This document shows positions 48,874 through 55,832 of a DNA stretch of 64,000 bases, one piece after another (the first letter of the stretch is position 1; each line of letters starts with the position of its first letter). This DNA comes from Pusillimonas noertemannii. Its GTDB lineage: Bacteria > Pseudomonadota > Gammaproteobacteria > Burkholderiales > Burkholderiaceae_B. The notes under the pieces are model-generated. The model was given only the letters and a program-made list of their open reading frames with translations, had not been told where the DNA came from and made no database searches. Location: NCBI RefSeq assembly GCF_003096595.1, contig NZ_QEKO01000002.1:63064-127063 (forward strand). The letters are read 5' to 3'. Made by a program: the position numbers and the translations under genes.

Positions 48874-49674
48874 ATGACCATGCAACAGTACGAAGACTTC
48901 ATGCGCCATGTATACGAACATGGCACCAGCAAGACCGATCGCACCGGCACGGGCACGCGCTCGATCTTCGGCCACCAGATGCGTTTCGATCTGAGCCAGG
49001 GCTTTCCGCTGGTTACCACTAAAAAACTGCACACCAAAAGCATCTTCATCGAACTGCTGTGGTTCTTGCGCGGCAGTTCCAATGTGCGCTGGCTTCAAGA
49101 GCGCGGGGTCTCGATCTGGGACGAGTGGGCCGATGCCAATGGCGACCTTGGGCCGGTCTACGGCGTGCAATGGCGCTCGTGGCCCACGCCCGACGGGCGC
49201 CACATCGACCAGATCTCGAACGTGCTGCGGCAAATACGTGAAAATCCCGACTCGCGCAGGCTCATCGTGTCGGCCTGGAACGTCTCCGACATTCCCAACA
49301 TGGCCCTGCCGCCCTGCCACGCCTTTTTCCAGTTCTACGTGGCCGACGGCAAGCTGTCCTGCCAGCTGTACCAGCGCAGCGCCGACATATTCCTGGGCGT
49401 GCCCTTCAACATCGCCAGCTATGCCCTGCTTACCCACATGGTGGCGCAGCAGTGCGACCTAGAGGTGGGCGACTTCATCTGGACCGGCGGCGACTGCCAT
49501 CTGTACAGCAACCACTTCGAGCAGGTCGAACTGCAGCTGTCCCGCGCGCCCCATCCCTATCCGCGCCTGAACATCAAGCGCAAGCCGGCCAGCCTGTTCG
49601 AGTACGAATACGAAGACTTCGAAATCGTCGACTATCAGTTCCATCCGCACATCAAGGCCCCTGTCGCCGTCTGA
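48874..49674 (+). CDS. thyA: Thymidylate synthase
   Basis: ThyA methylates dUMP to dTMP, turning methylenetetrahydrofolate into dihydrofolate. The 266-residue enzyme has [19 protein letters not shown], the catalytic cysteine in [14 protein letters not shown] (about residue 148) and the folate-binding [18 protein letters not shown]. It lies 20 bases before the folA fusion gene, whose DHFR recycles the dihydrofolate made here. Confidence 0.98.
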
Positions 49675-49694: not shown

Positions 49695-51587
49695 ATGGCC
49701 CAGCCCCACATCAAGTTGGTCGTCGCCTATTCCACCAACCGGGTCATAGGCCGCGACAACGACCTGCCCTGGCGCCTGCCGGGCGACCTGGCGCACTTCA
49801 AGCGCAGCACCATGGGCCAGCCCATCGTCATGGGCCGCAAGACCTGGGAATCGCTGGGGCGGCCACTGCCGGGCCGGCCCAATCTCGTCATCAGCCGCGA
49901 CCCAGCCTATGCGGCCGAAGGCGCGCGCACGTTCACCTCGCTGGCTCAGGCCCTGGCGGCTTGCGAAGGCGAAGCCACGGCCTGCGTCATCGGCGGCGCG
50001 CAGATATTCAAGGAAGCCCTGCCCCTGGCCGATGAAATCATCGCCACCGAAATCCATGCGACGGTGGACGGCGACGTGTTTTTTCCGGCTCTGCCCGCCA
50101 ATGAATGGCAAGAGAAAGAACGCCGGCCCCAGCCTGAAGAAAACGGCTATCGCTACGACTTCGTCGTGTATTGCCGCCAGGGCAGCGACGCTGCGCGCAA
50201 AGCCGATGACACAGTTGAGCCTGCCACAGACAGCACGGAAAACGCGCTGAAGGCCGCCGATTCCGCCGACGACGGCTCTGCGCCGGAACTCGCCCATCTG
50301 TGGATGCCCTTCACCGCCAACCGGCAGTTCAAGCAGAAGCCTCGCCTGCTCAGCAGCGCCCAGGGCATGTACTACCACGATATGGACGGCCGCCGCATCC
50401 TGGACGGCACAGCCGGGCTGTGGTGCGTCAATGCCGGGCACGGAAGAAGCGAGATCGTGCAGGCCATTTCCAGCCAGGCCGCGCAGCTGGACTATGCGCC
50501 GGGCTTCCAGATGGGCCACCCGCAAGCCTTCGAGGCCGCCACAGCGGTAGCCCGGATCATGCCGCCCCAGTTGGATCGCATCTTCTTCACCAATTCGGGC
50601 TCAGAGTCGGTGGACACCGCCCTGAAGATCGCCCTGGCCTACCATCGCAGCCGCGGCGAAGGCCAGCGCACGCGCTTCATAGGCCGCGAGCGCGGCTACC
50701 ATGGCGTCGGCTTCGGCGGCATTTCGGTAGGCGGCATCACGGCCAACCGCAAGGCCTACTCGGGCGCCCTGCTGCCCGCCGTCGACCATCTGCCGCATAC
50801 CCATAACCTGCAGCACAACGCCTTTTCGAAAGGCCTGCCCGAATGGGGTGCTCACCTGGCCGACGAACTCGAGCGCCTGGTCGCATTGCACGACCCCTCG
50901 ACCATTGCCGCCGTCATCGTCGAACCGCTGGCGGGCTCGGCCGGCGTGCTGCTGCCGCCTAAGGGCTATCTCGAGAAGTTGCGCGCCATTACCGCGCGCC
51001 ATGGCATTTTGCTTATCTTCGACGAAGTCATCACCGGCTTCGGCAGGCTGGGCTCCGCCACGGCCAGCGAGTATTTCGGCATTACCCCCGACCTGCTTAC
51101 CCTGGCCAAGGGGCTGAGCAACGCGGCCGTGCCCTGCGGCGCCGTGGCCGTGCACCGCGACGTCCACGACAGCATCGTGGGCCAGGCGGCCCAGGGCATC
51201 GAACTGTTCCACGGCTATACCTATTCGGGGCATCCCCTGGCCGCCGCGGCTATCCGGGCGACTCTGGACATTTATGAACGCGAGCGCCTGTTCGAACGCG
51301 CCGCAAGGCTGTCGCCCTATTTTGAACAAGCCGCGCACGGCCTGCGCGGCGCGCGCCATGTCGCGGACGTGCGCAACCTGGGCCTGGTTGCCGGCGTGGA
51401 ACTGCAAGGCCGCGAGGACGCACCGGGCGCGCGCGCCGCCGAGGCCTTCCAGGCCTGCTACGAACAGGGCGTGCTGCTGCGCTACACGGGCGACACCCTG
51501 GCGCTCTCGCCCCCCCTGATCATCGACGAAGGCCAGATCGAGCAATTGTTCGGCACGCTCAAGGCAGTATTGGACAAGATAGCCTGA
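49695..51587 (+). CDS. folA: Dihydrofolate reductase fused to class III aminotransferase
   Basis: One uninterrupted frame of 630 codons encodes two enzymes. Residues 1-162 are a complete dihydrofolate reductase: LVVAYSTNRVIGRDNDLPWR, the catalytic acid Asp31 in RLPGDLAHFK, VMGRKTWESLG, CVIGGAQIFKEAL, ending YDFVVYCR. An acidic Ala/Asp/Glu-rich linker (about 163-195) leads into a full omega-amino-acid:pyruvate-type aminotransferase (about 196-630). The aminotransferase has HLWMPFTANRQFK, FFTNSGSESVDTALK, the cofactor aspartate Asp443 in FDEVITGFGR and the PLP lysine Lys472 in LAKGLSNA. Both active sites look intact. DHFR is normally a stand-alone protein of about 160 residues. A lost stop codon (or a base-call error) between two adjacent genes must be excluded; the linker has no obvious internal start with a ribosome-binding site. 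Confidence 0.9.
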   Translation: MAQPHIKLVVAYSTNRVIGRDNDLPWRLPGDLAHFKRSTMGQPIVMGRKTWESLGRPLPGRPNLVISRDPAYAAEGARTFTSLAQALAACEGEATACVIGGAQIFKEALPLADEIIATEIHATVDGDVFFPALPANEWQEKERRPQPEENGYRYDFVVYCRQGSDAARKADDTVEPATDSTENALKAADSADDGSAPELAHLWMPFTANRQFKQKPRLLSSAQGMYYHDMDGRRILDGTAGLWCVNAGHGRSEIVQAISSQAAQLDYAPGFQMGHPQAFEAATAVARIMPPQLDRIFFTNSGSESVDTALKIALAYHRSRGEGQRTRFIGRERGYHGVGFGGISVGGITANRKAYSGALLPAVDHLPHTHNLQHNAFSKGLPEWGAHLADELERLVALHDPSTIAAVIVEPLAGSAGVLLPPKGYLEKLRAITARHGILLIFDEVITGFGRLGSATASEYFGITPDLLTLAKGLSNAAVPCGAVAVHRDVHDSIVGQAAQGIELFHGYTYSGHPLAAAAIRATLDIYERERLFERAARLSPYFEQAAHGLRGARHVADVRNLGLVAGVELQGREDAPGARAAEAFQACYEQGVLLRYTGDTLALSPPLIIDEGQIEQLFGTLKAVLDKIA

Positions 51588-51607
51588 AAAAGCGCCGGGC
51601 CGCTTTC
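51587..51607 (-). terminator. Shared hairpin between the folA fusion and the barrel gene
   Basis: AAAGCG (51589-51594) pairs with CGCTTT (51601-51606) across a GC loop between the two convergent stops. On the minus strand a run of five T follows, making it a short intrinsic terminator for the barrel gene and the gcv operon. Confidence 0.5.
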
Positions 51608-52931
51608 AGAAAGTGTAGGTAACGAGAAGCTGGCCCCACAGGTTTCCGCTACTCGTGCCGATCTGGCTGCCTCCGCTTGCATCGTCGTACCGAGGCTTGT
51701 ACCAGCCGATGACGGGCATGATATAGAAACTGCCCGCCCGCCATTCGGCGTACAGATCGATTTCATGGGCGTCCAGCCGGCCCAGCGACTTGTTCAGGGA
51801 ACTGAAGCGGTAGGCCAGCAGGCCGAAGCTCAGCCGTTCACCCGCGGAAACCCTGACGTTGACGTGATGCACCTTGGCATTGCTGTTGAACGGGCCGGCG
51901 TAATTGCCGGCCAGCTCGCCCTGCACCCAGGTGCCCAGGCCGCGCACATTGCCATAGAACAAAGGATCGAAGCGATCCGAAAAATAGCTGTAGCGATAGT
52001 TGACGCTGGGCTTGCCGGGCAGATCTGAGAAAGTCCACCCTATCTCGCCATACCAGGCCCTTTCCGCTCCCGTGTGCCTGCGCTGATGCGCGTACTCGGC
52101 CGAGACGAAGAGATTGCGTATGCCCAGGTTTCCATGGCCGCGCAAGCTGTAGGTCTTGACGCCCTTGCGGTCGCGCGTATCGAGCTCGGCATCGCTGTCG
52201 AGAATATCGACATAGGCCAGGCTCAGGGTGGCCTCTTCCGATTGCCCTTCCAGCAAGGCAACGGCCAGCTCCGGTTTGCCCTGGCCCGGGTTGTTCGACT
52301 TCAGCCACATCAGTTCGCCGGCCAGGCCCCGGTCGCCGCCCAGGCGCAAGGCGGCCGTTTGCGCAAAGGCGTTCTCGGGCGCCAGGTAATAAGCCCCGCC
52401 CCGGTCCAGCACCCCGCCCGAAATTTCCCGGCCCATGCTGAGGCCGTCCTTGGCGATCAGGAAGCCGTCGCCAAGCATGAGCCGCTGGCGCCCCACTGAA
52501 AAGCGCAGCCCGTCCTTGCCCAGTGCGGGAAACAGGAAGCCCGAGCGCCAGCCGACATAGGCTTCGGAAAGCGCTGTCGCACGCTCGCGGCCGCTGGTCC
52601 ATCCGGCGGGATCGCCGTCGCCGAACGTGCCCTTGGCCAGGCCTGTGACGCCGCCGTACAGTTGGCTTGCCATCGACAGGTTTCGCACGCCCCGCAAGCC
52701 GAGCTTGACGTAGCCCTCTTGCCACGTAGAAGAGCCCTTGCCGCGAAGCCCCGACTGCTGATAATTGCGCTGGCTGTGGTAGGCGCCGGCGCCCACCTGG
52801 AAGTCGAGATGCAGTTCACCCGTCTCGGAATCGATCATCTGCTCGGCACACGCCATGCCAGGACCACCAAGCAGCAAGGCGGTGGAAAGCGCAACGCATG
52901 CGCAAGACAGCTTTCCGCATTCAAGGAACAT
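51606..52931 (-). CDS. Outer-membrane beta-barrel protein, alginate-export/porin-like
   Basis: The 441-residue protein has a signal peptide (about 1-29, ending MACAEQ) and alternating beta-strand patterns throughout, ending with the outer-membrane signature LLVTYTF (terminal Phe). The stretch RFDPLFYGNVRGLGTWVQGE and NSNAKVHHVNVRVS resembles the alginate-export family of barrels. The substrate is unknown. It starts six bases after the gcvP stop, on the same strand, so it appears to be the last gene of the glycine cleavage operon. Confidence 0.78.
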   Translation of the reverse strand: MFLECGKLSCACVALSTALLLGGPGMACAEQMIDSETGELHLDFQVGAGAYHSQRNYQQSGLRGKGSSTWQEGYVKLGLRGVRNLSMASQLYGGVTGLAKGTFGDGDPAGWTSGRERATALSEAYVGWRSGFLFPALGKDGLRFSVGRQRLMLGDGFLIAKDGLSMGREISGGVLDRGGAYYLAPENAFAQTAALRLGGDRGLAGELMWLKSNNPGQGKPELAVALLEGQSEEATLSLAYVDILDSDAELDTRDRKGVKTYSLRGHGNLGIRNLFVSAEYAHQRRHTGAERAWYGEIGWTFSDLPGKPSVNYRYSYFSDRFDPLFYGNVRGLGTWVQGELAGNYAGPFNSNAKVHHVNVRVSAGERLSFGLLAYRFSSLNKSLGRLDAHEIDLYAEWRAGSFYIMPVIGWYKPRYDDASGGSQIGTSSGNLWGQLLVTYTF

Positions 52932-52937
52932 GCAGCA

Positions 52938-55832
<2,895 letters not shown>

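Follow-up and report, generated by a model that had tools for sequence, protein, structure and literature searches.

The window analyzed here, a 64,000-nucleotide stretch of the Pusillimonas noertemannii genome, contains on its forward strand a single open reading frame of 630 codons (positions 49695-51587; ATG at 49695, stop codon at 51585-51587) in which a dihydrofolate reductase (DHFR) gene, folA, runs on into a gene for an AptA-type omega-amino-acid:pyruvate transaminase. We hold with good confidence that this frame is a genuine fusion of folA and the gene behind it, aptA, which would yield one polypeptide of two independently working domains and tie AptA to folA expression. The fusion probably arose by the merging of neighbours after loss of a regulator gene.

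The DHFR domain (residues 1-159; 49695-50171) is complete, as proposed in the first-pass annotation, whose coordinates, frame and length for the 630-codon frame were correct. Pfam DHFR_1 (PF00186, E = 1.8e-56) matches residues 6-161 at 190.7 bits against a cut-off of 25, covers positions 2-159 of the 159 in the profile and finds no other match in the whole genome, and the nearest solved chains are DHFRs. Asp31, which we take to be the catalytic Asp and the counterpart of E. coli Asp27, is present within the motif LPGDL. Residues 198-630 (50286-51584, forward strand) form a class III aminotransferase domain matched by Pfam Aminotran_3 (residues 213-626, E = 9.8e-87) and by the NCBIfam omega-aminotransferase AptA model NF052567 (residues 199-629, 708.5 bits versus a cut-off of 500, profile positions 2-431 of 431), with 4b98, 4uhm and 3a8u as the best solved matches. 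The PLP lysine and aspartate claimed for this domain are indeed there, Lys472 and the paired Asp443 aligning with those of 4b98; in the same alignment the pocket Trp243 and the substrate Arg596 are kept relative to Pseudomonas Trp61 and Arg414, and Gln421 is replaced by Ala603. These three Pseudomonas residues are described as the carboxylate site of the Pseudomonas-type beta-alanine:pyruvate aminotransferase (EC 2.6.1.18) in the available part of PMC3606037. An Ala at the Gln421 position is common to all 16 AptA rows of our alignment, fused and unfused. The genome encodes five class III aminotransferases in total, and the four outside the fusion are just 27-30% identical to the one within it.

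All three genomes in our sample of the genus (G000, the window genome; G001; G002) carry the fusion in frame, and the window protein shares 86% and 81% identity with those of G001 and G002. The linker of the window protein (residues 160-197; 50172-50285, forward strand) is acidic, as originally noted (9 D/E, 4 K/R), and by these borders measures 38 residues rather than the approximately 33 first reported; it has 41 residues in G001 and 8 in G002, and since the linkers differ in length while the frame stays open, the insertions and deletions preserved the reading frame, which goes beyond what chance would give. dN/dS values (NG86) over the three genus pairs were 0.189, 0.127 and 0.105 for the DHFR domain and 0.116, 0.069 and 0.061 for the AptA domain, those for pairs with G002 being rough because synonymous sites are near saturation (AptA pS 0.69). 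For the linker, dN/dS was 0.505 on the 38 codons aligned between G000 and G001; the other two pairs gave 1.10 and 0.30 on 8 codons, a number too small for a verdict. Thus, both domains are under purifying selection, whereas neither the length nor the sequence of the linker is conserved. Together with the conserved catalytic residues, this selection supports the earlier suggestion of a bifunctional enzyme, as far as sequences can speak to activity. Sequencing or assembly error, or a gene in decay, is very unlikely and scarcely merits weight: nothing was found in its favour for the window gene, and it is contradicted by the agreement of three genomes and by dN/dS well below 1 in both domains.

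Two of the three fused genes have no standard start codon between the domain cores: in G000 and G002, ATG, GTG and TTG are all missing from the stretch that separates the DHFR core from the AptA motif HLWMPF, the nearest such codons lying within the DHFR core and within HLWMPF, and the window linker has no in-frame ATG, GTG or TTG. Among unfused relatives, an ATG stood 3-8 codons ahead of the AptA core in 11/11 inspected, and the folA stop codon lay 2-14 codons past the DHFR core at the 17 loci inspected. AptA might nonetheless also, or only, be made separately, through a non-standard internal start (for example a CTG in the linker), re-initiation, or post-translational cleavage of the linker. 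The last route would suit the AlphaFold model, in which the DHFR part is mostly confident and the linker is of low confidence (pLDDT < 50 at residues 165-210), like disordered and hence cleavable stretches; the AptA part is too weak in that model to judge domain packing. In G001, moreover, separate AptA is possible because the linker contains one ATG, 16 codons ahead of the AptA core. We nevertheless regard separate production as unlikely, given the missing standard starts in G000 and G002, the loss of conserved residues if translation began at the TTG or ATG within HLWMPF, and the G002 linker of just 8 residues.

The arrangement of folA and aptA in relatives suggests how the fusion could have come about. 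Both genes could be placed, from the matches listed, in 112 of the 268 genomes of the family, most genomes with just one of the two among those matches being left out. In 82/112 genomes the two genes share a strand, with aptA 1.2-3 kb further downstream; they are less than 500 bases apart or merged in 15 (3 fused, 12 unfused with stops checked), 3-15 kb apart in 5, and on separate contigs, on opposite strands or far apart in 10. Where the gap was inspected (part of the 82 genomes), it mostly holds a gene pointing away from aptA that was rejected as pmbA-like, its GntR and Aminotran_1_2 domains being those of a MocR-type regulator; the compared stretch of G202 (gap of 1.8 kb) gave no MocR match. 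Such a mocR gene stands beside folA in G013, G026, G105, G109, G110 and G031. At 26 family loci, which are among the best AptA matches and not a random sample and which include G026, G105, G109 and G110, mocR is divergent upstream of aptA, with a flank free of DHFR, in 19; it is absent with folA/DHFR adjacent in 5, and neither mocR nor DHFR is nearby in 2.

A graded series is seen among the closest relatives. G127 has the order osmC-thyA-folA-[divergent mocR]-aptA-gcvP, and this order recurs, minus mocR, in G125 and G126, where folA and aptA are adjacent but separate genes; in G126 aptA begins, in a different frame, with an overlap of 11 bases onto folA. A stop codon and separate aminotransferase start in close relatives, which the first-pass annotation had viewed as speaking against a fusion, are therefore not seen within the genus (3/3 fused) but do occur one genus out, in G125 and G126. 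The best matches to a MocR query were 55-59% identical in G127, G135, G119, G120, G114 and G118 and 30-34% identical in G000, G001, G002, G125 and G126; they were 35-44% identical in G128, G065, G134, G081, G082 and G092, where folA is next to aptA and unfused. G114, G118 and G120 each carry, besides the aptA that adjoins folA, a second copy located elsewhere beside mocR, so that the adjacency in these genomes may stem from duplication. We infer, rather than observe, that the regulator gene was lost, since the mocR layout is not general: mocR is divergent upstream of aptA in just 8/80 public loci from wider bacteria at the threshold used, and at 2/26 family loci both mocR and DHFR are missing from the neighbourhood. 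That the mocR-aptA layout is the older one is supported by its presence in Cupriavidus necator, where aptA has a divergent MocR-type regulator gene in the mocR / aptA-mmsA1 cluster (available part of PMC6572756).

In a tree of 36 AptA rows chosen from the compared loci, the fused domains form one clade (support 100/96) beside the unfused folA-adjacent copies of G125 and G126 (99/95), and the folA-adjacent label requires six changes, at least two of them forced by well-supported branches. Because all three genus genomes are fused and G125 and G126 keep two genes, the fusion arose, on the sequence comparison, in or just before the window genus, and most simply it had a single origin. From an ancestral or common family layout with a divergent mocR between folA and aptA, disappearance of mocR in the genus and in G125 and G126, the nearest relatives compared, would have left aptA directly behind folA; the genus would then have lost both the stop codon of folA and the start codon of aptA, giving a single reading frame. 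The two domains are expected to fold and work independently across a flexible, poorly conserved linker, and the fusion would probably carry two DHFR units per AptA dimer, because a related Pseudomonas enzyme is a dimer (available part of PMC4907197). The main consequence would lie in expression, with AptA made together with DHFR and in equal number instead of under its own regulator.

In a search with the fusion, no further DHFR-AptA fusion occurred among the matches listed for the 268 family genomes, in which stop-free matches spanning both domains were confined to G000 and G001; the G002 match splits in two because the linker is short, yet that gene is still fused. Matches in G119, G120 and G134 cross both genes but have stops between, and these were rejected as fusions. 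DHFR frames longer than 590 residues among the matches listed belonged to G000, G001, G002 and G013, the G013 frame extending upstream. Long frames at other folA genes were likewise rejected as further fusions: in 9/9 genomes inspected (G013, G026, G109, G105, G110, G031, G224, G116 and G117) the frame extends upstream and folA stops normally, and the loci L135, L141 and L143 gave the same picture. Among the matches listed for 399 order-level genomes, both domains were spanned solely in G000, and no DHFR match was present in any of the best 80 public loci listed from a whole-fusion search of genome contigs, in which the best named matches to the AptA part (72-75%) came from Paraburkholderia, Caballeronia and one Burkholderiaceae genome bin.

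A different fusion occurs in another genus of the family (g28). In G176, behind osmC-thyA, folA is in frame with a class I/II aminotransferase (L122:1501-3138, forward strand; also seen as L176, G176:C223), giving 545 residues in total, and the aminotransferase part belongs to the methionine aminotransferase subfamily (520.6 bits versus a cut-off of 420). In G177, G181, G183 and G184 the same aminotransferase gene comes after a folA that ends in a stop codon, and it starts from an ATG of its own, whereas in G176 the intergenic stretch and the ATG of the second gene are missing. This fusion rests on one genome of approximately 310 contigs that is 95% complete. The genus comprises 11 genomes, of which G178, G180 and G182 were outside the comparison and G175, G179 and G185 are without that aminotransferase neighbour in the compared stretch, the gene lying about 8 kb further on in G175. 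Among the matches listed for 300 order-level genomes, a sample without G176, none spans both domains of the G176 fusion. If the G176 fusion is confirmed, a natural DHFR C-terminus accepts large partners more than once. It is unlikely that DHFR is a recurrent fusion partner of PLP aminotransferases in this family, favoured by selection because it is useful to tie a transaminase to the expression of folA or to folate status; if true, folate reduction and transamination would have a link that has gone unrecognised, with the class III AptA of the genus and the methionine-type enzyme of G176 as two convergent examples of it.

The surroundings of the window fusion bear on a functional coupling of this kind. 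The upstream neighbour is thyA (thymidylate synthase; 48874-49674, forward strand; Pfam Thymidylat_synt, E = 2.2e-128), the fusion ATG starts 20 bases past the thyA stop, and thyA adjoins folA in many of the relatives checked. By Pfam, the gene order is OsmC-like, thymidylate synthase, fusion, an opposite-strand gene of uncertain family (51606-52931, reverse strand; Alginate_exp match below cut-off) and gcvP (52938-55832). Thus, thyA is directly upstream as first described, whereas of the gcv genes placed downstream gcvP is near but not next, the 51606-52931 gene lying between. A counterpart of that intervening gene adjoins the fusion in G001 and G002 too, and it has no match in the compared stretches of G125, G126 and G127. 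The one-carbon context drawn from these neighbours is weaker than it appears, as aptA sits beside its own divergent mocR in 19/26 family loci.

Folate and beta-alanine meet in pantothenate synthesis, so that transamination could be tied to folate status or the two activities could profit from proximity in a shared pathway (for example beta-alanine and 5,10-methylene-THF leading to pantothenate). The nearby thyA and gcvP and the occurrence in the family of two DHFR-PLP aminotransferase fusions with different aminotransferases, the second known from one genome, would fit such coupling, but we consider it improbable, with only a slender chance of being right: the linker shows no conservation, the partner in either fusion is simply what follows folA as the next downstream gene in relatives, and panD is present in 3/3 genus genomes, which led us to reject AptA as a required source of beta-alanine. 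The channelling proposed at first reading is unsupported because the linker is conserved in neither length nor sequence and we know of no substrate or intermediate that DHFR and AptA share.

The likely AptA reaction, predicted from sequence, converts an omega-amino acid and pyruvate to a semialdehyde and alanine, the donor being unproven and uncertain because P. aeruginosa Gln421 aligns with Ala603. In Alcaligenes and Caulobacter, related AptA enzymes accept amines and short beta-amino acids, with beta-alanine and beta-aminobutyrate among the donors (available part of PMC3281772), and a catabolic role has been proposed for the Pseudomonas enzyme from enzyme assays (available part of PMC4907197). 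Such a role would fit here because panD is present and each of the 3/3 genus genomes has one MMSDH above cut-off, always on a contig other than that of the fusion.

Bifunctional DHFR-thymidylate synthase is known from protists and plants. The window protein resembles it in having DHFR inside a bifunctional protein; however, DHFR is joined there to another enzyme of its own folate cycle, whereas here the partner is a transaminase and thyA is a separate neighbour. Like stand-alone FolA, the fusion has a whole DHFR_1 domain, the presumed catalytic Asp, a single genomic match and a thyA neighbour, but the DHFR C-terminus continues into another enzyme. Like the AptA transaminases of Caulobacter, Alcaligenes denitrificans and P. 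aeruginosa (4b98), the second domain has a full-length NCBIfam match and keeps the PLP Lys, the Asp, the pocket Trp and the substrate Arg; unlike them, it is without its own start codon, and it has Ala instead of the carboxylate-binding Gln421 of Pseudomonas. The C. necator cluster shares aptA and a divergent mocR with the 19/26 family loci, while in the window genus no close relative of the MocR regulator was found and the one MMSDH match above cut-off is on another contig. No report of a DHFR-aminotransferase fusion was found in the open-licence literature searched; in the sections available, a comparative study of folate genes lists several fused folate genes, none of them FolA-aminotransferase (PMC1971073), and a survey of metabolic fusions contains no FolA-aminotransferase fusion (PMC4921024).

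The locus thus offers a natural series, from a regulator gene between the two genes through adjacent and overlapping genes to fused ones. It could serve to test whether unrelated enzymes become free to fuse once a dedicated regulator gene is lost, rather than through metabolic channelling, and it cautions against taking every gene fusion for a functional link. A minor observation concerns thyA at other folA loci: in G189, G181 and G135 the best ThyA match beside folA is just 26-35% identical, versus at least 81% at other loci having ThyA, and thyA in these three genomes looks as if it had been replaced.
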